Positions 1-64,000 of a DNA stretch of 64,000 nucleotides are shown here, piece after piece. Source of the stretch: Alkalibacter rhizosphaerae (GTDB taxonomy: Bacteria > Bacillota > Clostridia > Eubacteriales > Alkalibacteraceae); NCBI RefSeq assembly GCF_017352215.1, contig NZ_CP071444.1, forward strand, positions 558,001-622,000, written 5' to 3'. The translations under genes were made by a program, and so were the position numbers. Within the stretch, counting starts at the first letter, position 1; every line of letters begins with the position of its first letter. The notes beneath the pieces are model-generated. The model saw only the letters and a list, made by a program, of their open reading frames with translations. It was not told the DNA's origin and did no database searches.

Positions 1-1373
1 AATCGGGAACGATCGATCATGTTCTGATACTTTTCGTGAGCCGCCCGCATCAACGGTTCCACCCTTGGGTCTGCCGGCGGATGGTCTTTGGTCAATTCTT
101 CGAAACTCTCCACATACTTGGATTCGAATTTCGGATACAGATGGGAGTATTTTTGTATGGAATCTTCTTTCTTTTCGGTAGTGACCAATTCTCCTGCATT
201 GTCATACTTGCCGTTTTCCAAAATGTATTCCAGGACGGCAACGTAGTTTTCCGGATTGACGTCGCCTAGCGCCAAGGCCGATTTATCTGTGATGAACTGG
301 TAGTTTCCACCGGGAGCCAGAATATCGATCAATTCTTTCGCCTTGTCGATGCACTGCTGCTTGGTACCGTTGCCCAGCAGCGTAAGGGGATAGAATCCAC
401 CCAGTACCATCTTTTTACCCAATTTATCCTTGAATTTTTGCGGATCTCCGTATTCCATCCAAAGCTGGGTACCTTGAGGCAATTCCTGCAGATGATCAAT
501 GAAACGGGTCCAGTCTCCTTCCAGGAAGATCTGCATGGGTTGTCCCTGCTCTGCCGCTATATGGCAAACTTTATTGAAGGTGGGGAAATAGAATTTTTCA
601 AATTGTTCCGTACTCAGGAAAGCCGCCATGTGGGTCATGATCATGTTGCATCCAAGAGGATTGATCACATTGGGCTTGCCCAGCCAAATGGCATAAGGCA
701 TAATGGCTTCCAATGCCTCCAGCAGCTTCTCCGGACAACGTCTCATATCCATGGGGATCTTGGAGAATCCACGATACATGTCGGTTATAAAATCGAATGG
801 GACGATCTGCATGCCTACACTGCCAAAAGGCCGTCTGAACAACCCATATCTTTCGACCATAGTAGCTTCCGCCTCACCGAATGCCCTTCCCTGCTCCATA
901 CCGGAAAGAAGGGATTTTGCATAATTATGGGCACGGTTGACGTCGTTGTCGTATCCCTTGTTGATCCTGGGCTGGAGTACTTCCAACACAAAATCATAAG
1001 GGTTTTTGATGAATTCGTCGTAATCTTCTGCATCCATGACCGATTTTTCCGCGTGTTGAATGAATCCGGATTTGCTCATTTCCATCAAACTGGATTTTTG
1101 GAACATCAGTCCGATGGGATCCCTTGCAAAAGCACTGACGGGGGTGTCTCCTCTGCAGATCTCTCGTCCTTTCTCAAAAATATCGACAAGCAATTCAGTA
1201 CTGTACTGATACTGGGTGGTCATCAGGTCTCTTCCGGAGTACTGGATCAAAAATTCCAGTCCCACCGCATCTTTTACAGGAATGCGATCGGGGATCACAC
1301 CGGTAAAGAGATCTTCAAACAACTTGGTTCTGTACTCTTTCATCTGCTGGGGGTTATCGGGTCGTTGTGTCAT
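1..1373 (-). CDS. Long URO-D-fold corrinoid methyltransferase-like protein, copy 1 (3' end cut by window)
   Basis: Reads from ATG at 1373 (good GAGGTGAT ribosome site) to the window edge: 457 full codons, with the last residues ...NMIDRSR aligning with the end of its neighbour (NMIDRGFFL), so only a few residues are missing. It is a close paralogue of the 459-aa protein immediately upstream; the two are nearly identical over the region containing MIFLEGDWTRFIDHLQELPQ-like sequence. The fold assignment (uroporphyrinogen decarboxylase superfamily, MtaA/CmuA/MtvB-like) rests on general similarity and on the neighbouring corrinoid genes. True HemE is unlikely: there are no other haem genes here and the protein is much longer than HemE. 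Substrate unknown. It has its own promoter and sits behind a terminator, so it is probably transcribed separately. Confidence 0.75.
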   Translation of the reverse strand, partial: MTQRPDNPQQMKEYRTKLFEDLFTGVIPDRIPVKDAVGLEFLIQYSGRDLMTTQYQYSTELLVDIFEKGREICRGDTPVSAFARDPIGLMFQKSSLMEMSKSGFIQHAEKSVMDAEDYDEFIKNPYDFVLEVLQPRINKGYDNDVNRAHNYAKSLLSGMEQGRAFGEAEATMVERYGLFRRPFGSVGMQIVPFDFITDMYRGFSKIPMDMRRCPEKLLEALEAIMPYAIWLGKPNVINPLGCNMIMTHMAAFLSTEQFEKFYFPTFNKVCHIAAEQGQPMQIFLEGDWTRFIDHLQELPQGTQLWMEYGDPQKFKDKLGKKMVLGGFYPLTLLGNGTKQQCIDKAKELIDILAPGGNYQFITDKSALALGDVNPENYVAVLEYILENGKYDNAGELVTTEKKEDSIQKYSHLYPKFESKYVESFEELTKDHPPADPRVEPLMRAAHEKYQNMIDRSR

Positions 1374-1500: not shown

Positions 1501-2880
1501 CTACAGGAAGAATCCTCGATCGATCATGTTGTGGTATTTGTTGTAATGCTCCCGCATCAACGGTTCCACTCTTGGATCTGCCGGCGGATGATCCTTGGTC
1601 AGTTCTTCGAAACTTTCCACGTATTTGGATTCGAACTTTGGATACAAGTGAGAATATTTTTGGATGGAATCTTCTTTTTTTGCTGTTGTAACTTGCTCTC
1701 CCGCATTGGAATATTTTCCGTTTTCCAATACGTATTCCAAAACCGCCACGTAGTTTTCCGGATTCAAATCCGACATGACCAAAGCTGCCTTGTCCGAGAT
1801 AAACTGATAGTTTCCTCCAGGAGCCATGATGTCCATCAGTTCCTTGGCTTTGTCGATACACTGTTGTTTTGTTCCCTTGCTAAGCAGGGTAATGGGATAA
1901 AAACCACCAAGAACCATCTTTTTACCCAATTTGTCCTTGAATTTTTGCGGATCTCCGTATTCCATCCAAAGCTGGGTACCCTGAGGCAATTCCTGAAGGT
2001 GATCGATGAACCGGGTCCAGTCTCCTTCCAGGAAGATCTGCATGGCTTGTCCTTTTTCTGCGGCTATGTGGCAAACTTTATTGAATGTGGGGAAATAGAA
2101 TTTTTCAAATTGCTCCGTACTGAGGAAGGCAGCCATGTGGGTCATGATCATGTTGCATCCCAAAGGACTGATCACATTCGGTTCCCCCATCCAGATGGCG
2201 TAAGGCATGACGGCTTCCAGCGCTTCCAACAATTTTTCCGGACAACGCTTCATGTCCAATGGGATCTTGCTGAACCCCCGGTACATGTCGGTAATGTAGT
2301 CAAAAGGAACCACTTGCATGCCAACAGAACCCATGGGGCGGGTAAATAATCCATATTTTTCAACGATCTCCGCTTCCGCCCTGCCAAATTCCATTGCCTG
2401 TTCCATATGAGACAAAACGGCCTTGACATAGCTTCTGGCCCGCATGACTTCATTGCTGTAGGCTTTGTTGAGCCTGGGCTCCAACGTTTCCAACACAAAA
2501 TCGTGGGGATTCTTAATGAACTCGTCGTACTCGTCAGGGTCCATGACCGACTTTTCCGCATGCTGAATGAATCCGGATTGGCTCATCTCCATGACGATGG
2601 ATTTTTGGAACATCAAGGCAATGGGATTTCTTGCAAAAGCGCCTACGGGCATGTCTCCCCTGCAGATCTCCATTCCCTTTTCCAAAATTTCAAGGATCAA
2701 TTCATACTTGTACTGATATTGGGTGGTCATCAGATCCTTGCCTGCATACTGGATCAGGCATTCCCAACCGACCGTATCCCAAACCGGTATTCGGTCCGGT
2801 ATGATGCCGGTATACAGATCCTCGAAAAGCTTGGTGCGGTAGGCTTTTTTCTCTTGCGGGTTTTTCACTTGTTCCGTCAT
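1501..2880 (-). CDS. Long URO-D-fold corrinoid methyltransferase-like protein, copy 2
   Basis: Complete 459-aa protein; ATG at 2880 follows GAGGTGAT. It resembles the uroporphyrinogen-decarboxylase-fold methyltransferases (MtaA/MtbA/CmuA/MtvB group), which move methyl groups from a substrate to a corrinoid protein. It is longer than the 326-aa family members elsewhere in the window, with about 100 extra residues. It lies directly downstream of the corrinoid activator gene but behind a strong terminator and its own promoter. No corrinoid protein is encoded on this strand nearby, so it would have to use one from the divergent operon. The methyl donor is not predictable from sequence alone. A decarboxylase or regulatory role cannot be excluded. 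Confidence 0.75.
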   Translation of the reverse strand: MTEQVKNPQEKKAYRTKLFEDLYTGIIPDRIPVWDTVGWECLIQYAGKDLMTTQYQYKYELILEILEKGMEICRGDMPVGAFARNPIALMFQKSIVMEMSQSGFIQHAEKSVMDPDEYDEFIKNPHDFVLETLEPRLNKAYSNEVMRARSYVKAVLSHMEQAMEFGRAEAEIVEKYGLFTRPMGSVGMQVVPFDYITDMYRGFSKIPLDMKRCPEKLLEALEAVMPYAIWMGEPNVISPLGCNMIMTHMAAFLSTEQFEKFYFPTFNKVCHIAAEKGQAMQIFLEGDWTRFIDHLQELPQGTQLWMEYGDPQKFKDKLGKKMVLGGFYPITLLSKGTKQQCIDKAKELMDIMAPGGNYQFISDKAALVMSDLNPENYVAVLEYVLENGKYSNAGEQVTTAKKEDSIQKYSHLYPKFESKYVESFEELTKDHPPADPRVEPLMREHYNKYHNMIDRGFFL

Positions 2881-3116: not shown

Positions 3117-4907
3117 TTAATCTTCTCCCTCCCAGGAGTCCCCGAAATTCATGTTTCCGGTATATTGTTCCATAAACCCTGGTTTGTTGGCCAATTCAAC
3201 GAATATGGCTTCCCGTCCCAAGACACGGCATTCCTGTTGTTTTTCCTTGGAAATGAGGTAAAGCTGAGAACCCGTTCCCGCTGCATTGCCAAGAGATCGT
3301 ACCGGTACTCCCTCATATTTGGGGATCATGCCAATGGATTGGGCGTGGTGTACGTCGATGTAGTTTCCAAAAGCGCCGGCAATGACGATTTCCGTCAAAT
3401 CTTCTCCCTTGATGCCGTAATCCTCCACCACCATGACACAACCAGTGTAGATGGCTGCTTTGGCCATTTGCACCTGGCGTACGTCGTTCTGGCTGAAGAA
3501 TATATCCGTTCCAATGGAAGTTTCTTCTGCAAATGCCACGACGAAAACATTTTCATGGCCTTCCTTCCGGATCCTCTTCTTCAGATCTGGTGAAACCATA
3601 TCCTCCGGATCATTGAAGGTTCCCAGTTCGTTGATGACTTCATTTTTATACATTTCCGCTACCAGGTCGATGACACCGGAACCGCAGACCCCTTCCGGTT
3701 TGGTGTTTCCAATCACTTTGTATTCCAATTTGCCGTCTACAATGGCGACCCGTTCGATGGCGCCGTTGGTCCCCCGCATTCCGTGAGACAATCCTGCACC
3801 TTCAAGCGCCGGACCACAAGCAGTTGATGATACGTTGTAGTTGGTGTCTTTACCGACAGCGATCTCGCCATTGGTGCCCAAGTCCAACATCAATCGAACC
3901 TTGTTGTCATTGGGTATGGACAACAATACAGCTGTCGTATCCGCACCGACAAACCCGCCCAGAAGCGGCAATATGGCAAATTTACCTGTGGGACACATCT
4001 TCAAGCCGATATGTTTTGCACTGGTTTCATACACGGAATGGATGGTGCTGGAAAAAGGCTTCTTACCCAAATACTCCGGATACAATCCCAGCAACAGATG
4101 TTGCATGGTGCTGTTGCCTACAACTACTGCCATATAGATGTCCACGATATCGATCTTATGGGAATCGCAAATATCCGTGATGATCTCATTCAAGGTGTCC
4201 ACTGCCAGCTTTTGCAATCGAGGACCATATTTGTCCGGTTCCGTCACTACATGATTGATCCTGGATATGACATCTCCGCCCAGTTCCGTTTGTTTGTTCA
4301 TGGTGGAACTGACACCAACGATCCTACCATCCTCCATATCATACAGATATCCTACTGCCGAGGTGGTCCCCAAGTCGAATGCAATACCGTAAACGGTCCT
4401 CTCGTCATCTCCCGGCATAACATCTAGAATTTCACAGTGGTTCATGATCAGGCGCAAACCGCTTTCGTGGTGATATGTTTTAGAAATCTTCTGCAATATC
4501 TCCAATTCGGGTTTTTGGATTTTTTTGTCCGTCAAATTCCGCAAGGTGGACCAATCGTTGTCGCCAAGTTCTGTAAACAGTTGCTCTCTGGTAAAATGCA
4601 GCGAGTGGATCGACGGATTATGGGCCGTTTGATCCATGGTGGAGGAAGTCAGGATCTGCACTTTCTGTTCTTCTTCTCTCAACAACACTTTTATACCATC
4701 GTATACAACTACTTGACAGGACAAGACCCGCTTGACTTCACCGTCTTCTTCAATGTCGACACCGCATTTTTTACACACACCCCGTCCACCGCAAACCAGG
4801 TTGAGGGGATATCCTGCATCTGCACATGCCTGGGACAACTTTGTACCTTCCGGCACTTCAATGGATTTGTTCAAATAAGGAAATTCTACTTTCAACATCT
4901 TTGCCAT
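3117..4907 (-). CDS. Reductive activator of corrinoid proteins (ferredoxin/ASKHA ATPase)
   Basis: RACo/RACE/RamA-like protein that uses ATP and low-potential electrons to return inactive Co(II) corrinoid proteins to Co(I). I place the start at the ATG at 4907 (596 aa) because AAAGGAG lies upstream at proper spacing; an ATG 21 bases earlier has no such site. The N-terminus carries a plant-type [2Fe-2S] motif with Cys39, 45, 48 and 64 (C-x5-C-x2-C-x15-C). The C-terminal half is the DUF4445/ASKHA domain with FDLGTTSA, LDLGTNGE and GAFGNYID phosphate/nucleotide motifs. It is divergent from the methyltransferase/corrinoid operon, as is common for corrinoid systems, and is the only activator in the window, so it probably serves all three corrinoid proteins. 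Confidence 0.92.
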   Translation of the reverse strand: MAKMLKVEFPYLNKSIEVPEGTKLSQACADAGYPLNLVCGGRGVCKKCGVDIEEDGEVKRVLSCQVVVYDGIKVLLREEEQKVQILTSSTMDQTAHNPSIHSLHFTREQLFTELGDNDWSTLRNLTDKKIQKPELEILQKISKTYHHESGLRLIMNHCEILDVMPGDDERTVYGIAFDLGTTSAVGYLYDMEDGRIVGVSSTMNKQTELGGDVISRINHVVTEPDKYGPRLQKLAVDTLNEIITDICDSHKIDIVDIYMAVVVGNSTMQHLLLGLYPEYLGKKPFSSTIHSVYETSAKHIGLKMCPTGKFAILPLLGGFVGADTTAVLLSIPNDNKVRLMLDLGTNGEIAVGKDTNYNVSSTACGPALEGAGLSHGMRGTNGAIERVAIVDGKLEYKVIGNTKPEGVCGSGVIDLVAEMYKNEVINELGTFNDPEDMVSPDLKKRIRKEGHENVFVVAFAEETSIGTDIFFSQNDVRQVQMAKAAIYTGCVMVVEDYGIKGEDLTEIVIAGAFGNYIDVHHAQSIGMIPKYEGVPVRSLGNAAGTGSQLYLISKEKQQECRVLGREAIFVELANKPGFMEQYTGNMNFGDSWEGED

Positions 4908-4990
4908 TTTATTAACTCCTTTTGTCATAAATTTTGCTTACTTTCCTTGATTTTTCAAGCTTTTACTCAAGCTAAATTTGTCTTCATTTT

Positions 4991-5009
4991 AATATTGTAT
5001 AACAATATT
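4991..5009. promoter_or_regulatory. Perfect palindrome in the activator/methyltransferase divergent intergenic
   Basis: AATATTGTATAACAATATT: 8-bp inverted arms around ATA. It lies between the divergent activator and methyltransferase genes, about 30 bases upstream of the latter's promoter, so it is a candidate operator for both directions. Confidence 0.4.
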
Positions 5010-5036
5010 TCTTTACAAACAAGATTAAATAATATA

Positions 5037-5065
5037 TTGACAAAGCGCCCATTTCTATGTAAGAT
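5037..5065 (+). promoter_or_regulatory. Promoter of the methyltransferase-corrinoid-URO-D operon
   Basis: TTGACA (5037-5042), 17-base spacer, TAAGAT (5060-5065). The same hexamers recur before hydrogenase operon 2 (58111-58139). Confidence 0.65.
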
Positions 5066-5093
5066 TTTAAGTAGACATAAATATTCATAATTT

Positions 5094-5136
5094 CATCCGG
5101 ATCCAACCGGATGGGTTTGTCGATTAATGCAATCGA
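5094..5136 (+). other. Two small hairpins in the operon leader
   Basis: CATCCGG/CCGGATG (5094-5100 and 5107-5113) and TCGATT/AATCGA (5120-5125 and 5131-5136) are perfect stems in the transcribed leader before the ribosome site. No T-run follows, so neither looks like a terminator. I do not recognise a riboswitch class. Confidence 0.4.
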
Positions 5137-5166
5137 TGACAATATTAATTAATAGGAGGGAACACA

Positions 5167-5973
5167 TTGATTATCATTGGAGAAAAAATCAACGGATCCA
5201 TTCCTTCGGTCGCGAAAGCCATCGCCGCCAAGGACGCAGATTTCATCCGAAATCTGGCAAAAATTCAAACGGAAGCCGGAGCAACATTCATTGACGTTTG
5301 TGCATCGGTAGACGACGACATCGAGCTGGAGACCATGAAATGGTTGATCGACTTGGTACAGGAGGTAACAGATACTCCCATAGCAGTGGACAGCCCCAAC
5401 GAAATGACTTGTCTGGAATCCATGAAGTATTGCAACAAGCCGGGTCTTTTCAACTCCGTATCCATGGAGGGAAAGAAAATTGAAAACGTATTCCCGGTCA
5501 TCGCCGACACAAAATGGGAGATCGCAGCACTTCTCAACGACGATACAGGGATCCCGCAAACGGCGGAAAAGCGACTGGAAGTATTTGCAAACCTGATGGC
5601 AAAAGCCAAAGAATACAACATCGACCCGTCCAGATTCCACATCGATCCATTGATCGAAATGCTTTGTACGTCGGAAGACGGCATCGCCATGGTGGAGACG
5701 GTCATCTCCGAGATCAAGAAACAATACCCGACCATCCACGTAACGGGAGCGGTAAGCAACATTTCCTTCAACCTGCCGGCACGAAAGATCGTCAACCAGG
5801 CCTTTACCGTACTGGCCATGAAAGCCGGTTTGGACAGCGCCATTTTGGATCCGACGGATCAAAACCTGATGGGAATGATCTACGCCACAGAGTGCATGCT
5901 GGGAGAAGACGAGTACTGCATGGAATACATCAGTGCATATCGGGAAGGCATCTTTGGTGCAAAGAAAAAGTAA
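5167..5973 (+). CDS. Methyltetrahydrofolate:corrinoid methyltransferase (methyltransferase II)
   Basis: 268 aa with a dihydropteroate-synthase-like TIM barrel. It starts at TTG 5167, eight bases after AGGAGGG. The family (AcsE/MtrH/MtgA/MtvA-like) moves a methyl group between a corrinoid protein and tetrahydrofolate. Visible conserved positions are DSPN at 75-78, FNSVS at 95-99, D160 and GAVSNISF at 194-201, the last containing the Asn that binds the pterin in characterised members. It is the first gene of an operon with a corrinoid protein 50 bases downstream and a URO-D-fold methyltransferase, the layout of a three-component demethylase. A nearly identical copy begins beyond the right edge of the window. 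Confidence 0.9.
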   Translation: MIIIGEKINGSIPSVAKAIAAKDADFIRNLAKIQTEAGATFIDVCASVDDDIELETMKWLIDLVQEVTDTPIAVDSPNEMTCLESMKYCNKPGLFNSVSMEGKKIENVFPVIADTKWEIAALLNDDTGIPQTAEKRLEVFANLMAKAKEYNIDPSRFHIDPLIEMLCTSEDGIAMVETVISEIKKQYPTIHVTGAVSNISFNLPARKIVNQAFTVLAMKAGLDSAILDPTDQNLMGMIYATECMLGEDEYCMEYISAYREGIFGAKKK

Positions 5974-6641
5974 GGGGAACCATTAAACAAACAATATAAC
6001 AACACTACGAGGAGGAACAGTACATGTCAAAAATTCAAGAAGTTCAAGAAATGGTAGCAAAGGGTAAAACCAAAGTAGTAGCAGGATTGGTCCAGGAAGC
6101 ATTGGACGGGGGCGCACAACCGAAAGAAATTTTGGATGCCATGATCGAGTCCATGGGAATCGTTGGAGACAAATTCTCCGCCGGCGAGATCTTCGTACCG
6201 GAAATGCTGATTTCTGCAAAAGCCATGAGCAAGGGTGTAGACGTACTCAAGCCGTTGTTGGCCGGAGACGCTTCCACATCGTTGGGAACCTGCGTTATCG
6301 GAACGGTAGCTGGAGACCTTCATGATATCGGCAAAAACCTGGTAAGCATGATGCTGGAGAGCGCCGGATTCACCATGATCGACCTTGGTGTAGACGTGCC
6401 TGCTGCAAAATTTGTTGAAGTTGCAAAAGAAAACAACGCAGTCATCGTTGCCGCTTCCGGATTGTTGACCACCACCATGCCTGCACTGAAGGAAACTTCT
6501 TTGGCGCTGAAAGATGCCGGATTCACTGTCATCGTTGGTGGAGCACCTGTTACCCAAGCTTATGCAACAGAGATCAAGGCAGACGGATACGCTCCGGACG
6601 CTGGTAGCGCCGTTACCAAAGCAAAAGAATTGGTAAAATAA
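5662..6641 (+). repeat. Left arm of a long inverted repeat (partner at 63021-64000)
   Basis: The last 103 codons of the methyltransferase, the 50-base intergenic and the whole corrinoid gene recur at 63021-64000 in the opposite orientation with only scattered synonymous differences. Both arms are 980 bases without length change. Similarity stops one base after the corrinoid stop codon. The repeat must continue to the right of the window. Confidence 0.9.
6024..6641 (+). CDS. Corrinoid (B12-binding) methyl carrier protein 1
   Basis: 205 aa, MtbC/MtvC/MtaC-like. Residues 1-85 form the helical cap domain; residues 87-205 are the Rossmann-like B12 domain with DLHDIG at 98-103, His100 being the lower cobalt ligand, then SGLLTTTMP (145-153) and VGGAP (171-175). 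It shuttles the methyl group between the URO-D-type methyltransferase and the pterin methyltransferase. AGGAGG precedes the ATG. The protein sequence reads as identical to the copy at 63021-63638, and differs at only a few positions from the copy at 8014. Confidence 0.93.
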   Translation: MSKIQEVQEMVAKGKTKVVAGLVQEALDGGAQPKEILDAMIESMGIVGDKFSAGEIFVPEMLISAKAMSKGVDVLKPLLAGDASTSLGTCVIGTVAGDLHDIGKNLVSMMLESAGFTMIDLGVDVPAAKFVEVAKENNAVIVAASGLLTTTMPALKETSLALKDAGFTVIVGGAPVTQAYATEIKADGYAPDAGSAVTKAKELVK

Positions 6642-6721
6642 TAGACAAACCGAATGACCTGAAATATATCATTGCTTCCAATGTACACACACGAAGCAGC
6701 AGAAAAAGGAGGTAGTTAATG

Positions 6722-7699
6722 ATGCTGACAATACGAGAAAATTTATTGGAGACCATCAAAGGGGGAAATCCCGACCGATTTGTCAATCAGTATGAATTCA
6801 TGGAATTGATCATGGAGTGCCCACTGGGCCAAATGGTTGGCCCGGGTCAAACATTGAAAAACGAATGGGGCATCACTTTCAGCTGGCCGGAAGGTCAACT
6901 GGGTGGATTCCCGGTCCACGACGAAGAACACAAGGTTTTGAAGGACATCACCAAGTGGAAAGAACAGGTGACCATACCGCCGATCGTAACAGATGACGCT
7001 GCATGGGCAGCTGCAGAAGAACATGCAAAAAATGTGGATCGCAACGAACGATTCGTGACTACATTCGTGGCTCCTGGCGTATTTGAAATGACCCATCACC
7101 TCATGAGCATGGAAGATGCCTTGATGGGATTGTATGAAGAACCGGAGTACATGCACGAATTGATCGACGCTTTGACGGAAAGAGAATTGGCTTATGCCAA
7201 AGAAATGATCCGTCGCATTAAGCCGGACGCCATTTTCCATCATGATGACTGGGGCAGCCAAAAGGCATCCTTTGTCTCACCGGAAATGTTCGAAGAATTC
7301 TTCCTGCCGGCTTACAAAAAGATTTATGGTTTTTACAAGGAAAACGGTGTGGAGTTGATCGTTCATCACAACGATGCCTACAGCGCCAACCTGGTGCCTT
7401 TCATGATCGAAATGGGAATCGATATCTGGCAAGGAGTCATGACCACCAATGATACACCGGAACTGATCAAAAAGTATGGTGGAAAAATTTCCTTCATGGG
7501 AGATATCGACAGTGGAGTGGTTGACTTCCCTGCCTGGACACCGGAGATCGTTCATCAAGAAGTGGAACGAGCCTGCACGAACTGCGGCAAACTCTACTTC
7601 ATCCCCAACCTGACACAAGGCTTGAACTTCAGTTCCTTCCCGGGAGTATATGAAGAAGCAAGCAAGGCCATCGACGAAATGAGCAAAAAACTGTTCTAA
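6722..7699 (+). CDS. Short URO-D-fold corrinoid methyltransferase (methyltransferase I) 1
   Basis: 325 aa, uroporphyrinogen-decarboxylase fold, third gene of the operon. Two ATGs are adjacent at 6719 and 6722; I choose 6722 because spacing to GGAGG and the N-terminus (MLTIR) match the two paralogues. Likely role: demethylate a small substrate and load the corrinoid protein. Conserved candidates for the active site are HHDDWG (173-178), HHND (215-218) and Cys288 in NCGKLYFIP. Metal ligands cannot be assigned safely from sequence. The substrate is probably O-, N- or S-methyl; similar proteins act in O-demethylation by acetogens, but no neighbour identifies it here. Confidence 0.85.
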   Translation: MLTIRENLLETIKGGNPDRFVNQYEFMELIMECPLGQMVGPGQTLKNEWGITFSWPEGQLGGFPVHDEEHKVLKDITKWKEQVTIPPIVTDDAAWAAAEEHAKNVDRNERFVTTFVAPGVFEMTHHLMSMEDALMGLYEEPEYMHELIDALTERELAYAKEMIRRIKPDAIFHHDDWGSQKASFVSPEMFEEFFLPAYKKIYGFYKENGVELIVHHNDAYSANLVPFMIEMGIDIWQGVMTTNDTPELIKKYGGKISFMGDIDSGVVDFPAWTPEIVHQEVERACTNCGKLYFIPNLTQGLNFSSFPGVYEEASKAIDEMSKKLF

Positions 7700-7706
7700 A
7701 AATTTT

Positions 7707-7734
7707 AAGAAGCACGCGATCTCGCGTGCTTCTT
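7707..7734 (+). terminator. Operon terminator
   Basis: AAGAAGCACGCGA/TCGCGTGCTTCTT, 13-bp perfect stem with two-base loop and T-rich tail, directly after the URO-D stop. Confidence 0.9.
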
Positions 7735-8013
7735 TTCCTTTTCTATGAACTTGACAAATGACGGATTTATTGATACGCTATTTTTGTAATATCTTTCTGA
7801 TTAACAATTTCTTAATGCGTTAAATTTTATTATATTGTATTCGTTGGATTATTTTCAAATAATTTCTGTTTGCTTGTTGACTTACAAGCGTATCATTGAT
7901 AAAATTTATACATATATAATGTTTTCGAAGCTTGCATTTTTATAAAACTGCAACCGTTTTCACTTGTCAGTAAGGCAACATATGTTGCTTGAAAATAAAA
8001 GGAGGAATAGTAC
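7735..8013 (+). promoter_or_regulatory. AT-rich intergenic with promoter for the second corrinoid/URO-D pair
   Basis: TTGACT (7877-7882), 17 bases, TAAAAT (7900-7905); the -10 overlaps the palindrome TATCATTGATA (7891-7901). The leader has TTGCA/TGCAA arms (about 7932-7953) and a perfect GCAACATATGTTGC palindrome (7975-7988). No ORF of note. Confidence 0.6.
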
Positions 8014-8634
8014 ATGTCAAAAATTCAAGAAATCCAAGAAATGGTAGCAAAGGGTAAAACCAAAGTAGTAGCAGGATTGGTCCAGGAAGCATTGGACGGC
8101 GGCGCACAACCGAAAGAGATCTTGGATGCCATGATCGAGTCCATGGGAATCGTTGGAGACAAATTCTCCGCCGGCGAGATCTTCGTACCGGAAATGCTGA
8201 TCTCCGCAAAAGCCATGAGCAAGGGCGTAGACGTACTCAAGCCGTTGCTGGCCGGAGACGCTTCCACATCGTTGGGAACCTGCGTTATCGGAACCGTAGC
8301 TGGAGACCTTCACGACATCGGCAAAAACTTGGTTAGCATGATGCTGGAGAGCGCCGGATTCACCATGATCGACCTTGGTGTAGACGTACCTGCTGCTAAA
8401 TTTGTTGAAACAGCAAAAGAAAACAACGCAGTCATCGTTGCCGCTTCCGGATTGCTTACCACCACCATGCCTGCATTGAAGGAAACTTCCTTGGCACTGA
8501 AAGATGCCGGATTCACCGTCATCGTTGGTGGAGCGCCTGTTACCCAAGCTTATGCAGACGAGATCAAGGCAGACGGATATGCTCCGGACGCTGGTAGTGC
8601 CGTTACTAAAGCAAAAGAATTGGTCAAGAAATAA
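8014..8634 (+). CDS. Corrinoid (B12-binding) methyl carrier protein 2
   Basis: 206 aa, same architecture as the carrier at 6024, with the helical cap and the B12 domain including DLHDIG at 98-103. It differs in a handful of residues (Ile6, Thr133, Asp182) and ends in one extra Lys. It has its own promoter and no methyltransferase II gene, so it must share the one encoded upstream. It pairs with the URO-D-type gene 60 bases downstream. Confidence 0.93.
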   Translation: MSKIQEIQEMVAKGKTKVVAGLVQEALDGGAQPKEILDAMIESMGIVGDKFSAGEIFVPEMLISAKAMSKGVDVLKPLLAGDASTSLGTCVIGTVAGDLHDIGKNLVSMMLESAGFTMIDLGVDVPAAKFVETAKENNAVIVAASGLLTTTMPALKETSLALKDAGFTVIVGGAPVTQAYADEIKADGYAPDAGSAVTKAKELVKK

Positions 8635-8694
8635 TTTTTGTTGATCGAATCGTATTTACTTTGGAACAGATGCAATTGAAGGAGGTCATTTAAA

Positions 8695-9675
8695 ATGTTA
8701 ACCATTCGACAAAATTTATTGGAAACCATCAAAGGGGGAAATCCCGACCGATTCGTAAAACAGTATGAATTCATGGAGTTGATCATGGAAGCCAACATGA
8801 GAAAAGGTGTAGCTCCTGGCGAACACCTTATTCCCAATGATTGGGGCGTCTATTACAGCTGGCCCGTAGGTCAACTTGGCGGATTCCCGGTCCATGATGA
8901 AGAGCACATCGTCATCAAGGACATCGAAAATTGGAAAGAGTATGTAAAAGCTCCGGAAGTCATCGATGACGACGAGTCCTGGGCAAAAGCAGAAGCTCAC
9001 GCAAAAGCTGTGGATCGCAACGAAAAATATTGCGGCGTATTTGTTGCTCCTGGTCTTTTCGAGCAGTGTCACCACTTGATGCGCATGGAAAATGCATTGA
9101 CTGCTTTCTATGAGTATCCCGATGAAATGCACGAATTGATCGATTACTTGACAGAGTACGAATTGAAGCTGGCGGAAGTATTGATCCGACGGGTCAAACC
9201 GGATCTTCTTTTCCATCATGACGACTGGGGTGGACAAATCTCCACATTCCTTTCTCCAGAAATGTTTGAAGAATTCTTCCTGGCTCCGTACAAAAAAATC
9301 TACGGATATTACAAAGACAACGGTGTTGAGCTGGTTGTTCACCACGCTGACAACTGGGCCGCAACATTGGTTCCTTACATGATCGAAATGGGAATCGACA
9401 TCTGGCAGGGTGCCATGTCTACCAACAACATTCCTGAATTGATCAAGCAATATGGCCCACAGATTACTTTCATGGGCGATCTGGACAGTGGAAAAATGGA
9501 CTTCCCAGACTGGACTCCTGAGATCATTCGGGAAGAAGTGGAACGATCCACCAGAAGCTGTGGCAAATTGTACTATATCCCTTGCCTCACAAGAGGATTG
9601 GGTTTCAGCTCCTTTGAAGGTGTTTATGAAAAAACGAATGAAGAAATCGACCGCATGAGCAAGGAATTGTTCTAA
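8695..9675 (+). CDS. Short URO-D-fold corrinoid methyltransferase (methyltransferase I) 2
   Basis: 326 aa; ATG after GGAGG with nine-base spacing. The first 25 residues (MLTIRQNLLETIKGGNPDRF...) are almost the same as in the 6722 protein, then the sequences diverge, especially residues 31-50, which could line the substrate pocket. HHDDWGGQ, HHADNWA and SCGKLYYIPC are the counterparts of the paralogue's motifs. Likely the substrate-specific partner of the preceding corrinoid protein; substrate unknown. Confidence 0.85.
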   Translation: MLTIRQNLLETIKGGNPDRFVKQYEFMELIMEANMRKGVAPGEHLIPNDWGVYYSWPVGQLGGFPVHDEEHIVIKDIENWKEYVKAPEVIDDDESWAKAEAHAKAVDRNEKYCGVFVAPGLFEQCHHLMRMENALTAFYEYPDEMHELIDYLTEYELKLAEVLIRRVKPDLLFHHDDWGGQISTFLSPEMFEEFFLAPYKKIYGYYKDNGVELVVHHADNWAATLVPYMIEMGIDIWQGAMSTNNIPELIKQYGPQITFMGDLDSGKMDFPDWTPEIIREEVERSTRSCGKLYYIPCLTRGLGFSSFEGVYEKTNEEIDRMSKELF

Positions 9676-41608: not shown

Positions 41609-44600
41609 CTAAGCCCGATAATCGCATCGCAGACAACGCATGGCTTCTGCCATGGCATTGAGGCGATGGTATCGGTACGCCACTTCTCTAAAATTGTTGA
41701 ACCGTTCCTCCGGTGTCAAAAAGTCCATGGGGAATCGGGAATGCTCCATCAATTCCGAATCATCGATCTCCATGGGGATTTCGATATGTTCTCCCTTATA
41801 GAGTTCGCCACTGCCCCCCAATGCCGCATCAATGGCAGATGCCGCCCGCTTTCCGTCTGCTATGGCCAATATGGCCACGTTGGATCCGCGAACCACGTCT
41901 CCACCGGCAAATACCTGTTCCACGTTGGTTCTTTGAGTGCTTTCATCAACAATGAAGGTGTCCCAATTGGTCAGATCGAAGCGATAGGGTTTTGCAAAAT
42001 CGATTTCCGTATGCTGGCTGACTGCAACGATGACCTGGTCACATGGAAATACCAAGGTATTGCCCTCATCCGCCACAACTTTATTTCTGCCGTCGGCGGA
42101 GTAGCCTTTTGCTTTCATCTTTTGGAACAATACACCTGTAGTTTTATCCACGCCCTGAATTTCTACAGGAGAAAACATTTCATGAAGAAGGATCCCCTCT
42201 TCCAATGCTTCATCGATCTCCCGCTCATGTGCCGGCATGTCTTCTTTTTTTCTTCGATAGAAGATATGGACCTCTTTTGCTCCTTTTCGCAAGGAAACCC
42301 TTGCCGCGTCTACTGCAGTGCTGCCCCCACCAATGACGACCACTACGTTTTCCTGTTCCGGCCATGTCCATTCTCCTGCATGCCGCAAAAATTCCAGACC
42401 CTTGTGGACTCCTGGCAGATCTTCACCGGGGATCCCAGCCGACTTCGATCCATGAGTCCCGGTGCCGATAAACACGGCATCGTGGGCTTCCCTCAACTGG
42501 CCAAAGGAAAGATCCTGACCGATCTCCACGTTGGTTTTGATTTTCACTCCCACCCGCTTGATGGAATCGATCTCTTTCATGAGGACATCTCTTGGAAGTC
42601 GATACTCCGGAATGCCGTAGGCCAGAACGCCTCCCGGCAATGGGTGCTTTTCATAGATGGTGACGTCATATCCCATTTTTGCCAAATAAAATCCACAGGT
42701 CAGACCGGATGGTCCGGCACCTACGATGCCCACGGACTTGTCTTTTTTGGACAATACAGATTCCGGTACTCCCCCTTCCACTTTCATGGCTTCATCGGCT
42801 GCAAATCTCTTCAGATCACTGATGGCCAGTGGCTCGTCCAGCTGGCTCCGTCTGCACTTGCTTTCACAAGGATGGGTGCAGATCCTCCCACAAACGGCAG
42901 GCAAGGGATTTTCCTGGCGGATCAACCGGTAGGCATCCAATGGTCTTCCTGCAGCAATCAGGGCCATGTAACCCGGTACGTTCACGTGAGCGGGACAGGC
43001 ATTTTCGCATGGCGATATAAACAGATCGGAACAAACTCCAGCCTGACAGTGGTGATCTCGAATATGTTGATCGTATTCTTCCCTAAAATACTTGATGGTA
43101 CTTAAAACGGGATTCGGTGCAGTTTGTCCCAAACCGCATAAAGCCGTATCCTTGATGGTTTCCGATAATTCGATAAGGAGCTCCACGTCCCCTTCTCTTC
43201 CCTGTCCCTGGGTGATCCGATTCAATATTTCCAACATTCTCCTGGTTCCGACACGACAAGCAAGGCACTTTCCGCAAGACTCGTCTTGAACGAATTCCAT
43301 GAAATATCTGGCCATATCCACCATGCAGGTGTCTTCATCCATACAGATCAACCCACCGGATCCCATGATGGCACCCAGGTCCGACAAGGATTCGTAATCT
43401 ACCGGAACGTTCAGATTGTCCCCGGTGATGCATCCGCCGGAAGGTCCGCCGGTTTGGGCGACTTTGAACCGTTTTCCTTTCGGAATTCCACCACCAATAT
43501 CAAAGAGGATCTCTCCCAAAGTCATTCCCAACGGCACTTCCACCAATCCGGTATTATTGATGTCCCCTGCCAGTGCGAACACTTTGGTACCACGGCTTTT
43601 TTCCGTACCATGACGTTTGAAATGATCGGCACCTTTGCTTAGAATATTGGGAATGTTGCCCAACGTCTCAACATTGTTGATGACAGTGGGTCGTTTCTCC
43701 AAACCTTCATCCGACGGATAGGGCGGCTTTTGTTCCGGTTCTCCCCTTTTCCCTTCCACGGAAGCGATGAGGGCCGTTTCTTCTCCACAAACAAAGGCAC
43801 CAGCACCGATGCGGACCTCCAGATCAAATGAAAAATCCGAATCCAGAATGCCCTCGCCCAGAAGTCCCGCCTGTCTTGCGATCCCAATGGCTTCTTCCAA
43901 CCGGTCAATGGCCAATGGGTATTCCGCCCGCACATATACGTAGCCTTTGGTAGCGCCAATGGCATAACCGGCGATCAACATGCCTTCGATGATATTGAAC
44001 GGATCTCCTTCCAAAAGGCTGCGGTCCATAAATGCGCCTGGATCCCCTTCATCGGCATTGCAGATCATGTATTTTTGACCTTCCCGATGTTTGGCGGCAA
44101 ATTTCCACTTCAAACCCGTTGGGAATCCTCCGCCGCCTCGTCCGCGCAATCCGGATTCGATGACCTCTTCGATCACATCCTCCGGTGTCATTTCATGCAA
44201 TGCCTTGTTCAGCCCTTGAAATCCGTCTCTGCTGATGTATTCTTCCAGCGATCCGTAATCGATAACACCACAATTGCGAAGGACCATTTTCTCCTGGCCT
44301 TTGAAAAACCCGATCTCATCCATGGTGCTCTTGTATTCTTTGTCTGCTTCATCATAATAAGTGAATGACACGACCACTTCGTTTTGCAAAAAATGTTTTT
44401 CCACCAGTTCTTTCATCATGGATGGTTCCAGATGACAGTAAAGTATCCTGCCCGGTTCCACCACCATCATAGGGCCTGCATCACAAAGTCCCATACAGCC
44501 GGTCACTTTGATGTGGACTTTTTCCTGCAATCCCTGCTTCGCCAATTCATCTTGAAATGCCTTCCTTACCTCTTCACTTTTTGAAGAAATGCACCCGGCA

Positions 44601-45222: not shown

Positions 45223-45545
45223 GTTGACACCTCCTCATAGATTGTTTGTATGTCAGGTATGTATGTACAGGTAATTAACAGGATGTGGAAATTGGTTAAA
45301 TGTTTAACTTTTTTGCATGCTATATATTTTGAACATTCTGATTATTTTACATAATCGTATCATATTTTATTGATAAATGCATCTTTTTTCTATTTTATAT
45401 CGTAAATTCGCTATTTTTTATATATTTTTCGATTATTTTATTGTTACATTACTAACATTTTCAAGGAACATACTGTATTTTTTTGAATATATCTGTTGTT
45501 AAAGTTCAAGTTTTGTGTTAAATTTTGATTATTCTTAAATCATTC
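45223..45545. promoter_or_regulatory. AT-rich divergent intergenic with a Rex-like palindrome
   Basis: Between hydC1 (leftward) and the antiporter gene (rightward). TGGTTAAATGTTTAACTT (45293-45310) contains GTTAAA/TTTAAC arms separated by two bases and resembles the NADH-sensing Rex operator. A weak TTGTTA-17-TAAATT promoter may serve the riboswitch. I see no ORF. Confidence 0.4.
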
Positions 45546-45606
45546 GGGGAATGAATGTCTCCCCTGGCTTGCCTAAACCGCTATCATTAGCTGATGACTT
45601 CTGCCT
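45546..45606 (+). ncRNA. Fluoride (crcB) riboswitch
   Basis: Matches the crcB fold: P1 GGGGA/TCCCC (45546-45550, 45560-45564) enclosing AATGAATGTC; then AAACCGC (45575-45581), a short loop and GCTGATGACTTCTGCC (45590-45605), the conserved 3' strand. The pseudoknot can form between GAA-T-GTC of the P1 loop and GACTTC, with one bulged base. The ten-base linker after P1 is longer than in the structural model I recall. The expression platform is not clear: a small TCTGC/GCAGA hairpin and a T-run follow before the ribosome site. Confidence 0.85.
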
Positions 45607-45645
45607 GGCAGAGCGTTGGCTTTTTTTGTTGAAGGAGGGATCGAC

Positions 45646-55590: not shown

Positions 55591-57459
55591 CTATTCTACG
55601 ACAATCGCTTCGTACTTGCAGACTGCAAAGCAGGCTCCACACTTGGTACACATGGTTTGGTCGATGCGATGAGCCGGTTTTTGTACCATCTTGATGCAAT
55701 GAACCGGACAAACCTTTACACAAGCCCTGCACCCGATGCATTTATCTTCGAAAATCCGATACGTTCTCATTCCCTTGCATGATCCGGTATCGCATTTGTG
55801 ATCAGTGACATGACGTTCATACTCTTCCCGGAAATATTTCATGGTGCTGAGCACCGGATTTGGAGCAGTTTGCCCAAGACCACACAGGGCGGAAAGTTTG
55901 ATGTTGTTGCCGAGGCGTTCCAGTTTCTCCAAATCCTCAAACTGCCCCTCGCCTTTTGTGATCTGATCCAGAATTTCATACATTCGTTTGGTACCGATTC
56001 GACAAGGTGTGCATTTTCCGCAAGACTCTTCCTGGGTGAATCCCAAATAGAATTTGGCAATATTCACCATGCAGTCCGTTTCATCCATGACGATCATCCC
56101 ACCAGAGCCCATCATGGACCCGATTTCCTTCAAACTGTCGTAGTCGATGGGAGTGTCCAAATGCTCCACAGTGATCACACCTCCGGAAGGTCCGCCGGTT
56201 TGTACTGCACGGAATTCCTTGTCGTTGTTGATTCCCCCACCAATGTCATAGATTATTTCCCGCAAGGTGGTTCCCATAGGGACTTCCACCAACCCAACTC
56301 TGTTGACTTTTCCTACCAAAGCAAAAACTTTGGTTCCCTTGGATTTTTCCGTTCCGATCCCGGCAAACCAATCCGCGCCGTTTAAGATGATGGATGGTAC
56401 ATTTGCCAAAGTTTCCACGTTGTTTACTGTTGTTGGCTTCTCCTTGTAACCGGAAACAGACGGATAGGGCGGTTTCTTTGTGGGTTCCCCCCGTTCTCCT
56501 TCCACGGAATGGATCAGCGCGGTTTCTTCTCCACAGACAAAGGCACCTGCACCTAGTCGCAACTCGATGGAAAAGTCAAATCCGCTGCCAAAAATATTTT
56601 CCCCCAATAAACCCAGCTCCTTCGCTTGAGCTATTGCAATTTTTAGTCGCTCAATGGCCAATGGGTATTCTGCACGTATATAAATGATTCCCTGATTTGC
56701 TCCTGTGGCATAACCGCCTATGGCCATAGCCTCCAATACGCTGTGCGGATCTCCTTCCAATATGGAACGATCCATAAACGCCCCCGGATCCCCTTCATCC
56801 GCATTGCAGATGATATACTTTTCTTTTGCCGGTTGCAAGGCAGTGGCGTGCCATTTGTATCCTGTCGGATATCCTCCACCACCTCTTCCCCGAAGGCCAC
56901 TCTTTTTGATGATCTCCAATACGCTGTCTGGATCTTTCTGTTCCAATACTTTTCCCAATGCTTCATATCCCCTATAGGCGATATAATCCATGATGTTTTG
57001 CGGATCCACAGACCCGCAGTTACGCAGTGCTATACGTTTCTGTCTTTTCTTTCCGCTTCCCTCCTGATCCGCTCTTTCAAAACCTATCTCCAACATGTTT
57101 CTTTCCGGCACTTCTCCTTCTCCGAAATGACTATCTACAATAATACCCGCTGCTGCTTCATCTACATAACCATAGTAAGCAGGAGCTTGGCCTGGTATAT
57201 TCACTTGAATGGTTGGCTCACAATAACAGGACCCAATGCATCCAACCGGACTGACTTTTACATCCGACATCCCCTTTTTCTTCAAGGCCTTCTCCAATGC
57301 GTTAAAAGTGTTCTTTGCACCAGCAGCAATGCCGCAAGTTGCCATTCCCACCAATATTTCCGGTTTTGCCTCCATGGCTTCACCAGTTTCCCGCAACAGA
57401 TATACATCTTCCAACGTTGCTTTCGCTTCAAACAGCTGACTCAGCGTGCTGATTTTCAT
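55591..57459 (-). CDS. hydB2: HydB/NuoF-like NADH-binding flavoprotein 2 with ferredoxin tail
   Basis: 622 aa from the ATG at 57459 (GGAGG, six-base gap); an ORF start nine codons earlier lacks a ribosome site. Order: thioredoxin-like [2Fe-2S] (CGIAAG... GCIGSCYC), FMN/NADH domain (GLRGRGGGGYPTG, GAFVCGEETA), [4Fe-4S] ESCGKCTPCRIGT, and two C-terminal [4Fe-4S] ferredoxin motifs (CIGCRACVKVC, CTKCGACFAVC). This is the standard HydB layout, in contrast to HydB1. It overlaps hydC2 by 32 bases. Confidence 0.95.
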   Translation of the reverse strand: MKISTLSQLFEAKATLEDVYLLRETGEAMEAKPEILVGMATCGIAAGAKNTFNALEKALKKKGMSDVKVSPVGCIGSCYCEPTIQVNIPGQAPAYYGYVDEAAAGIIVDSHFGEGEVPERNMLEIGFERADQEGSGKKRQKRIALRNCGSVDPQNIMDYIAYRGYEALGKVLEQKDPDSVLEIIKKSGLRGRGGGGYPTGYKWHATALQPAKEKYIICNADEGDPGAFMDRSILEGDPHSVLEAMAIGGYATGANQGIIYIRAEYPLAIERLKIAIAQAKELGLLGENIFGSGFDFSIELRLGAGAFVCGEETALIHSVEGERGEPTKKPPYPSVSGYKEKPTTVNNVETLANVPSIILNGADWFAGIGTEKSKGTKVFALVGKVNRVGLVEVPMGTTLREIIYDIGGGINNDKEFRAVQTGGPSGGVITVEHLDTPIDYDSLKEIGSMMGSGGMIVMDETDCMVNIAKFYLGFTQEESCGKCTPCRIGTKRMYEILDQITKGEGQFEDLEKLERLGNNIKLSALCGLGQTAPNPVLSTMKYFREEYERHVTDHKCDTGSCKGMRTYRIFEDKCIGCRACVKVCPVHCIKMVQKPAHRIDQTMCTKCGACFAVCKYEAIVVE

Positions 57460-61987: not shown

Positions 61988-62968
61988 TTAGAACATTTCC
62001 TCTGTCATGCGATCAATGGCCGCATCCGTTGCCTCATAAACTCCCGGGAAGGAACTGATGGCCAAACCTTGGCTTGCGCCAGGAATGAAGTACAGTTTTC
62101 CACAGTTTCTGCAGGCTCTTTCGATCTCTTTTTGGACGATCTCTTCTGTCCAGCCTGGGAAATCGATGACGCCACTGTCCACGTCTCCCATAAATGTGAT
62201 CTGTCCACCGTATTGTTTGATCAATTCCGGTGTGTCGTTTGTGGACATGACTCCCTGCCAGATGTCGATTCCCATTTCGATCATGAAAGGAACCAAGTTT
62301 GCCGCATAGCTGTCGCTGTGATGAACGATCAACTCAACTCCGTTTGCCTTATAGTGGCCGTAGATCTTTTTGTAGGCCGGCAAAAGGAACTCTTCAAATG
62401 TTGCAGGCGAAATGAAGGAATTCAACTGGCTGCCCCAGTCGTCGTGGTGGAACAATGCATCCGGCTTCAGATGTTTGATGAATTCATCTGCCAGTTTGAT
62501 CTCCCAGTCTACCAGGAAGTCGATGATCTCTTTCATGTATTCCGGTTCTTCGTAGAAATTCATCAACGCGTCTTCCATTCCCATGAAGTAGTGAAGATGC
62601 TCGAAAATTCCCGGTGCTACGAATACGGTCGCGTATTTTTCATTTTTGTCGATGGCCGCTACAGCTTCTTGCGCCGGCTTCCAGGCTTCATCCGGCTTGA
62701 TGATGTCCGGTGCTTTTACAACTTCTCTCCACTTGGTGATGTCTTTTACCAATTTATGCTCTTCGTCGTGGACCGGGAATGCACCCAGTTGTCCTTCTGG
62801 CCATCGAACGGTGATTCCCCACTCGTTGACGATCTCTCCGCCGATGGGCGGTTTCAATCTGGTGATCGGTGTGTTCATGATCATGGTGAAGGGCTCGTAT
62901 TGTTTCACAAAACGATCCGGATTCCCCCCGGTCATGACTTCTTTCAGGTTTTGTTTGATTGTCAGCAT
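61988..62968 (-). CDS. Short URO-D-fold corrinoid methyltransferase (methyltransferase I) 3
   Basis: 326 aa; ATG after GGAGG with seven-base gap. Third member of the short family: HHDDWGSQ, HHSDSYA and NCGKLYFIPG as in the others, and the closing VYEATDAAIDRMTEEMF. It occupies the third position of methyltransferase II / corrinoid / URO-D. DNA upstream is nearly identical to the left locus, but this gene is diverged from the 6722 gene, as expected if the substrate-specific part was exchanged. Confidence 0.85.
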   Translation of the reverse strand: MLTIKQNLKEVMTGGNPDRFVKQYEPFTMIMNTPITRLKPPIGGEIVNEWGITVRWPEGQLGAFPVHDEEHKLVKDITKWREVVKAPDIIKPDEAWKPAQEAVAAIDKNEKYATVFVAPGIFEHLHYFMGMEDALMNFYEEPEYMKEIIDFLVDWEIKLADEFIKHLKPDALFHHDDWGSQLNSFISPATFEEFLLPAYKKIYGHYKANGVELIVHHSDSYAANLVPFMIEMGIDIWQGVMSTNDTPELIKQYGGQITFMGDVDSGVIDFPGWTEEIVQKEIERACRNCGKLYFIPGASQGLAISSFPGVYEATDAAIDRMTEEMF

Positions 62969-63020
62969 GGTAGTACCTCCATCGTTGTTTTATTTTAGCT
63001 CGAATAACGTTTTTTGTTGA

Positions 63021-63638
63021 TTATTTTACCAATTCTTTTGCTTTGGTAACGGCGCTACCAGCGTCCGGAGCGTATCCGTCTGCCTTGATCTCTGTTGCAT
63101 AAGCTTGAGTAACAGGTGCTCCACCAACGATGACGGTGAATCCGGCATCTTTCAGCGCCAAAGAAGTTTCCTTCAGTGCAGGCATGGTGGTGGTCAACAA
63201 TCCGGAAGCGGCAACGATGACTGCGTTGTTTTCTTTTGCAACTTCAACAAATTTTGCAGCAGGTACGTCTACACCAAGGTCGATCATGGTGAATCCGGCG
63301 CTCTCCAGCATCATGCTTACCAGGTTTTTGCCGATATCATGAAGGTCTCCGGCTACCGTTCCGATAACGCAGGTTCCCAACGATGTGGAAGCGTCTCCGG
63401 CCAACAACGGCTTGAGTACGTCTACACCCTTGCTCATGGCTTTTGCAGAAATCAGCATTTCCGGTACGAAGATCTCGCCGGCGGAGAATTTGTCTCCAAC
63501 GATTCCCATGGACTCGATCATGGCATCCAGAATCTCTTTCGGCTGTGCGCCTCCGTCCAATGCTTCCTGGACCAATCCTGCTACTACTTTGGTTTTACCC
63601 TTTGCTACCATTTCTTGAACTTCTTGAATTTTTGACAT
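63021..63638 (-). CDS. Corrinoid (B12-binding) methyl carrier protein 3
   Basis: 205 aa; reads identical to the protein encoded at 6024-6641, including DLHDIG at 98-103, although codons differ at several places. AGGAGG precedes the ATG. Second gene of the right-edge operon. Confidence 0.94.
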   Translation of the reverse strand: MSKIQEVQEMVAKGKTKVVAGLVQEALDGGAQPKEILDAMIESMGIVGDKFSAGEIFVPEMLISAKAMSKGVDVLKPLLAGDASTSLGTCVIGTVAGDLHDIGKNLVSMMLESAGFTMIDLGVDVPAAKFVEVAKENNAVIVAASGLLTTTMPALKETSLALKDAGFTVIVGGAPVTQAYATEIKADGYAPDAGSAVTKAKELVK

Positions 63639-63688
63639 GTACTGTTCCTCCTCGTAGTGTTGTTATATTGTTTGTTTAATGGTTCCCC

Positions 63689-64000
63689 TTACTTTTTCTT
63701 TGCACCAAAGATGCCTTCCCGATATGCACTGATGTATTCCATGCAGTACTCGTCTTCTCCCAGCATGCACTCTGTTGCGTAGATCATTCCCATCAGGTTT
63801 TGATCCGTCGGGTCCAAAATGGCGCTGTCCAAACCGGCTTTCATGGCCAGTACGGTAAATGCCTGGTTGACGATCTTTCGTGCCGGCAGGTTGAAGGAAA
63901 TGTTGCTTACCGCTCCCGTTACGTGGATGGTCGGGTATTGTTTCTTGATCTCGGAGATGACCGTCTCCACCATGGCGATGCCGTCTTCCGACGTACAAAG
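63689..64000 (-). CDS. Methyltetrahydrofolate:corrinoid methyltransferase, second copy (5' end outside window)
   Basis: 103 codons and a stop, open to the edge: corresponds to residues 166-268 of the 5167 protein with the same amino-acid sequence in the visible part (GAVSNISF, ending GAKKK). The gene therefore begins beyond position 64000. It heads the right-edge corrinoid operon, 50 bases before the carrier protein. Confidence 0.93.
   Translation of the reverse strand, partial: LCTSEDGIAMVETVISEIKKQYPTIHVTGAVSNISFNLPARKIVNQAFTVLAMKAGLDSAILDPTDQNLMGMIYATECMLGEDEYCMEYISAYREGIFGAKKK

Follow-up and report, generated by a model that had tools for sequence, protein, structure and literature searches.

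Probable concerted evolution of corrinoid protein and methyltransferase genes across loci with divergent URO-D methyltransferase genes in Alkalibacter rhizosphaerae

The DNA analysed here (the window) is a stretch of 64,000 nucleotides from Alkalibacter rhizosphaerae (G000:C1:558001-622000; G000 is a one-contig genome of 2.45 Mb). Genes for all four MT1/CP/MT2/AE components (URO-D, Cor, MeTr and a RACo-type activase) lie within positions 3117-9675. The left cassette starts with MeTr (5167-5973, plus strand, 268 aa, TTG start), a methyl-corrinoid:tetrahydrofolate methyltransferase (MT2) recognised by NCBIfam PRK07535 (347 bits) and Pfam Pterin_bind, whose nearest solved relative is 4o0q (E 4e-85). 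It is followed by Cor copy A (6024-6641, plus strand, 205 aa), a corrinoid carrier protein with the Pfam domains B12-binding and B12-binding_2, the cobalamin motif DxHxxG...SxL...GG in its translation and similarity to 1y80 (E 4e-49); and by UroD_A (6719-7699, plus strand, 326 aa, Pfam URO-D), a URO-D-fold substrate methyltransferase (MT1). The UroD_A model (pLDDT 95) aligns with the M. mazei methyltransferase 4ay7 over 282 residues at 3.4 A (VIA-align Z 23.8), and matches URO-D about equally well, so that the fold does not settle the substrate. Further downstream are Cor copy C (8014-8634, plus strand; 94.5% DNA and 99% protein identity to copy A) and UroD_C (8695-9675, plus strand, likewise 326 aa), a second URO-D-type MT1 with 67% protein identity to UroD_A. 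The gene adjoining the left cassette (3117-4928, minus strand) encodes a RACo-type reductive activase of corrinoid proteins (Pfam RACo_C_ter 5e-75, Raco_middle 2e-47). From family knowledge, these genes are predicted to form a four-component corrinoid methyl-transfer system, in which the URO-D protein would pass the methyl group of the substrate to Cor, MeTr would transfer it from Cor to tetrahydrofolate, and the RACo-type enzyme would reactivate Cor. At the other end of the window, on the minus strand, are UroD_B (61988-62968), the URO-D-type MT1 of the right cassette; Cor copy B (63021-63638), with 98.7% DNA and 100% protein identity to copy A; and the C-terminal part of a second MeTr (63689-64000 in the window), the whole gene occupying G000:621689-622495.

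The two cassettes share an inverted repeat. A repeat search of the 64-kb window found positions 5662-6649 and 63013-64000 to be 99% complementary; this right copy is truncated by the window edge, 539 bp of the right arm lying beyond it. Base-by-base alignment with the flanking genome pairs the left arm (5123-6642, plus strand: leader, MeTr, 50-nt spacer and Cor; 1,520 bp) with G000:622539-621020, with no gaps and 14 mismatches. The right arm (minus strand) therefore covers 63020-64000 in the window and reaches G000:622539 (window coordinate 64539), at an arm-to-arm distance of 56.4 kb. The repeat had been described from the window letters as the end of the methyltransferase gene, the spacer and Cor; it is real and its spacer is preserved, but it also takes in the whole of MeTr and its leader, and past the window edge the right copy stays close through both (14 mismatches in 1,520 bp). 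The changes, reported as mostly synonymous and without any change in length, are gap-free and all 14 of them are synonymous by codon count (six synonymous and no non-synonymous in MeTr, eight and none in Cor). Consequently, the MeTr and Cor proteins are 100% the same between the two arms; and there are no differences in the 44-nt leader or the 50-nt spacer.

On either side of both arms, similarity drops immediately to background. The last base common to the arms is one past the Cor stop codon, a single base later than the sequence-only reading had placed it, and the tract ends there because homology between the loci ends there. The claim that similarity then vanishes and a different URO-D gene follows is right as to the difference; the genes are nevertheless related, UroD_A and UroD_B being paralogues of equal length with 66% protein identity, and DNA similarity 3' of Cor reappears in patches. 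Synonymous divergence between the arms is 0.035 for MeTr and 0.056 for Cor, compared with about 1.0 and 1.26, respectively, against Alkalibacter mobilis; between UroD_A and UroD_B it is saturated. Purifying selection alone is ruled out, since synonymous sites and the spacer are held alike as well as the proteins. The leaking of conversion into the 5' end of the URO-D genes was considered for an 86% patch (6706-6816 against 8679-8789) and was not supported, windowed synonymous divergence being high along URO-D.

High likeness is not general to paralogues in this genome, which contains 37 PF01208 matches in its 2.45 Mb: a tandem pair of 458-aa URO-D-family genes in the window (3-1373 and 1501-2880, minus strand), adjacent yet not homogenised, shows only 79% DNA likeness. 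The window also has two paralogous stretches (43200-43819 and 55946-56565), 12.7 kb apart in the same direction, with about 70-77% DNA likeness.

The sequence-only reading missed the third Cor at 8014-8634 and four more elsewhere in the genome. G000 encodes seven close Cor copies (95-100% protein and 87-99% DNA identity), located in both arms, at 8014-8634, and at G000:312, about 731, about 733 and 94.5 kb. Those at 312, about 731 and about 733 kb each precede another URO-D gene, and the URO-D genes beside Cor copies share 64-76% protein identity. The likeness of the Cor copies is confined to the region from the ribosome-binding site to the stop codon, and it is independent of distance and orientation: DNA identity is 98.7% for the inverted copies A and B at a distance of 56 kb and 98.0% for copy A with the 94-kb copy, but 94.5% for copies A and C, which lie in direct orientation 2 kb from each other. 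Between the seven copies, synonymous distance varies from 0.06 to 0.67, in every case below that to A. mobilis (1.26), and this spread suggests repeated events at different times. There were no significant partial conversion tracts inside Cor in a GENECONV-like run test of any pair; the tracts are therefore deduced from trees rather than observed, and homogenisation may act on the gene pair as a whole.

The Cor gene at G000:94497-95117 is solitary, with no MT1 or MT2 neighbours, and matches the window copies at 98% in DNA and 100% in protein; it is followed 3' by a terminator-like hairpin and a T run, and a PNPase gene lies nearby. It was considered as the orthologue of the Cor on A. mobilis contig C41, and this was rejected, the neighbours being different. 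Several URO-D genes of this type in G000 have no adjacent Cor, and no corrinoid remnant was found upstream of the lone URO-D gene at G000:2163 kb. Another URO-D gene of the same subfamily (G000:756006-757014) is broken across two reading frames and is a possible pseudogene. The Cor genes at about G000:732.6 and 734.4 kb have in common an operator-like stretch, ACATGTRCACACAAGTTGTACA, which precedes the start codon by about 30-50 nt, and PucR-type and GntR-type regulators are encoded near them.

The relatives compared were A. mobilis (G002, a draft genome and the closest named relative) and G003, a metagenome-assembled genome of another genus of the same family; two Acetobacterium genomes were added as a further comparison. 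The order MeTr-Cor-UroD_A-Cor-UroD_C is common to G000 and G003, on one G003 contig, and a separate MeTr-Cor-UroD_B is also present in G003, on another contig. The G003 URO-D proteins are the best matches of the window proteins UroD_A (79%), UroD_C (72%) and UroD_B (79%). Since the same URO-D genes adjoin MeTr-Cor in G003, the duplicate cassettes are older than the split of at least two genera. A further locus (locus E), the clearest example, has the order TetR-Cor-URO-D in both G000 and A. mobilis, Cor being flanked by orthologues on either side (67% protein identity for TetR and 89% for URO-D); its Cor in G000 is 96% identical at the DNA level to copy A of the same genome, versus 82% to the positional orthologue in A. 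mobilis. These arrangements bear on the possibility of a recent segmental duplication, in which MeTr-Cor would have been copied once, lately, in the lineage of this strain to a second place. The 99% identity and the sharp ends of the arms are what such an event would leave; the presence of both cassettes with orthologous URO-D partners, in the same order, in another genus makes it very improbable, since a chance landing before an orthologous URO-D gene would be needed repeatedly at several loci and, independently, in Acetobacterium. Of the two origins first offered for the methyl-transfer core, duplication or conversion, conversion agrees with the data and recent duplication is contradicted by synteny and trees.

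In A. mobilis, at least six contigs terminate inside MeTr or Cor. Near-identical repeats break contigs in short-read assemblies, and these contig ends suggest that near-identical copies exist there too. Inversion through the 1.5-kb, 99% inverted repeats is possible in principle. From UroD_A as far as G000:619 kb, contig C72 of A. mobilis stays collinear with the window, but the outer linkage is masked by contig breaks within the repeat, so that this comparison gave no evidence of inversion of the 56-kb segment.

The trees of the genes disagree with each other. URO-D proteins pair by locus: A joins G000 and A. mobilis (the orthologues of UroD_A are G2_C72a and G3_C216a; the latter is unresolved in the tree, with UroD_A as its best window match); B joins G000, A. 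mobilis and G003 (UroD_B with G2_C31 and G3_C162a); C joins the same three (UroD_C with G2_C14 and G3_C216b); and E joins G000 and A. mobilis. The URO-D tree requires 27 genome-label changes, against a shuffled mean of 25.6, indicating no clustering by genome; the Cor tree requires 9, against a shuffled mean of 22.4, indicating strong clustering by genome. All seven G000 Cor copies form one clade (support 100/98, and 100/100 in the DNA tree), and the MeTr tree groups by genome as the Cor tree does. In AU tests, orthologue pairing was rejected for Cor at five loci (p <= 2e-4) and for MeTr at both loci (p 5e-4 and 2e-3; stronger in a second analysis), and within-genome pairing was rejected for the URO-D genes (p <= 0.0034). 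The URO-D genes are thus the old, vertically matching part of these loci, and the MeTr-Cor core is the part being replaced.

The two Acetobacterium genomes are an independent replicate of this conflict between Cor/MeTr and URO-D trees: Cor identity is 94-95% within versus 85% between genomes, MeTr identity 92% within versus 83% between, and URO-D identity 68% within versus 76-86% between orthologues. There is an exception, Cor G57_835k/G8_2785k with MeTr G57_836k/G8_2786k, which follows orthology; homogenisation is therefore not universal. The pattern was found in G000, A. mobilis (whose MeTr copies are fragments), G003 and the two Acetobacterium genomes; a published criterion for concerted evolution asks for at least five species of one order (PMC6053082). 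An artefact of assembly or polishing that made the repeats look alike was also weighed, repeats of 1.5 kb being difficult for short reads and the A. mobilis contigs breaking there; it is scarcely credible, because the arms in the single-contig G000 still differ at 14 sites and are 94-98% identical to the other copies, and a parallel, milder homogenisation (92-96%) is seen in four other, independent assemblies.

The same comparisons bear on horizontal exchange of the URO-D modules among acetogens, by which incoming substrate modules would land behind a resident MeTr-Cor. The many paralogues (37 PF01208 matches), their patchy distribution between genomes and the occurrence of MeTr-Cor beside other MT1-like genes in many genomes are compatible with it. 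Such exchange may have happened at some loci in the past; as the explanation of the pattern it is unlikely, since the multi-gene order MeTr-Cor-UroD_A-Cor-UroD_C is common to G000 and G003, locus E retains its upstream TetR orthologue together with the URO-D orthologue, and the URO-D genes of different genomes have diverged far (dN 0.07-0.14, with synonymous sites saturated) and not recently. It would also leave the near-identical Cor copies unexplained. The modular design proposed in the sequence-only reading, with a uniform core and differing substrate methyltransferases, is borne out in its arrangement and not in its implied recent swapping of URO-D genes.

The arms are very probably ancient duplicate cassettes in which MeTr and Cor have been repeatedly homogenised within each genome, the downstream URO-D MT1 genes diverging freely. 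Three of the marks by which Wang and Chen recognise concerted evolution (PMC6053082) were found: copies within one genome that resemble each other more than their orthologues in other genomes (Cor and MeTr, by tree topology and AU tests), shared synteny that places the duplications before the species split (the order common to G000 and G003, and locus E in G000 and A. mobilis) and low synonymous divergence (MeTr and Cor of cassettes A and B). Sequence replacement between copies is called for because lineage-specific duplication and purifying selection both fail. The copying process was most likely homologous (RecA-type) ectopic gene conversion, which the present data do not distinguish from whole-gene re-copying into the same place, nor do they assign donor and recipient roles. 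Conversion would stop where homology stops, immediately 5' of MeTr and directly behind the Cor stop codon. The tract limits follow those ends, with the same limits in G003, where homogenisation begins at the MeTr start and reaches 12 nt beyond the Cor stop; no special signal is therefore needed. Selection may, less surely, favour homogenisation, if one interchangeable pool of Cor and MT2 docks with many MT1 enzymes. The idea that each genome is selected to keep one carrier-plus-MT2 'bus', conversion holding the Cor and MeTr copies compatible with every URO-D enzyme, is put forward tentatively; and it is conceivable, with equal reserve, that MT1 genes are thereby free to explore substrates across acetogen genera. 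The solitary Cor gene and the URO-D genes without Cor are consistent with selection for a shared pool.

This kind of phenomenon is already known, corrinoid methyltransferases of methanogens included. The 26 prokaryotic genes that Wang and Chen (2018) list as undergoing long-lasting concerted evolution include the Methanosarcinales genes mtmB, mtmC, mtbB and mtbC, with tuf and amo among the other cases (PMC6053082). The likeness to mtmBC/mtbBC is close: paralogues of one genome resemble each other more than syntenic orthologues do, homogenisation extends to synonymous sites, the corrinoid protein gene is affected and several partners of one complex are involved (PMC6053082). In Methanosarcinales, however, the MT1 (MtmB, MtbB) is homogenised with its corrinoid protein, whereas in Alkalibacter MT1 is exempt, and homogenisation links the corrinoid protein and MT2 genes of loci whose MT1s differ; Alkalibacter belongs to the phylum Bacillota, and MeTr/Cor are not among the archaeal genes listed (PMC6053082). 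An earlier case (2015) is mtrA, in which the corrinoid-binding part is likewise overwritten, with sharp limits at the homology edge, and the attached transmembrane domain diverges; it concerns one tandem gene pair, unlike the whole genes of Alkalibacter, which are separated by anything from 2 kb to hundreds of kb and occur in both orientations (PMC4632066). A comparable neighbourhood of URO-D-superfamily MT1, corrinoid protein and MT2 (plus activating enzyme) is found in the acetogen O-demethylases (Odm, Vdm, Mtv) and in Acetobacterium dehalogenans CdmBCA; the available part of that account reports several closely related MT2 paralogues per genome and describes no carrier/MT2 homogenisation (PMC13222342). 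The type 1 mlp clusters of Kountz and Balskus resemble the present ones in their URO-D-superfamily proteins, corrinoid protein and activase, and their account offers gene conversion as one conceivable source of anomalous branching; no tetrahydrofolate methyltransferase gene is present in those clusters, unlike the Alkalibacter cassette, which starts with MeTr adjoining Cor (PMC10418091). No report of concerted evolution in acetogen methyltransferases was found in the literature searched. As far as that literature goes, the bacterial acetogen case is new, as is the partition in which carrier and MT2 are homogenised and MT1 is free; it parallels the methanogen cases in a bacterium and places the border between homogenised and free genes differently.

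The methyltransferase sets of acetogens number in the dozens. If MT1 diverges while carrier and MT2 stay uniform, the substrate range could expand through MT1 additions alone. Cor and MeTr trees reflect the genome rather than the locus, and are therefore unusable for matching systems or inferring substrates. Were the carriers indeed shared in trans, as the tentative selective reading has it, the degree of homogenisation would mark the enzymes that share them. Elsewhere in the window, a fluoride riboswitch (Rfam RF01734, 39.5 bits) is found at 45538-45610 on the plus strand, directly 5' of a 400-aa gene at 45616.
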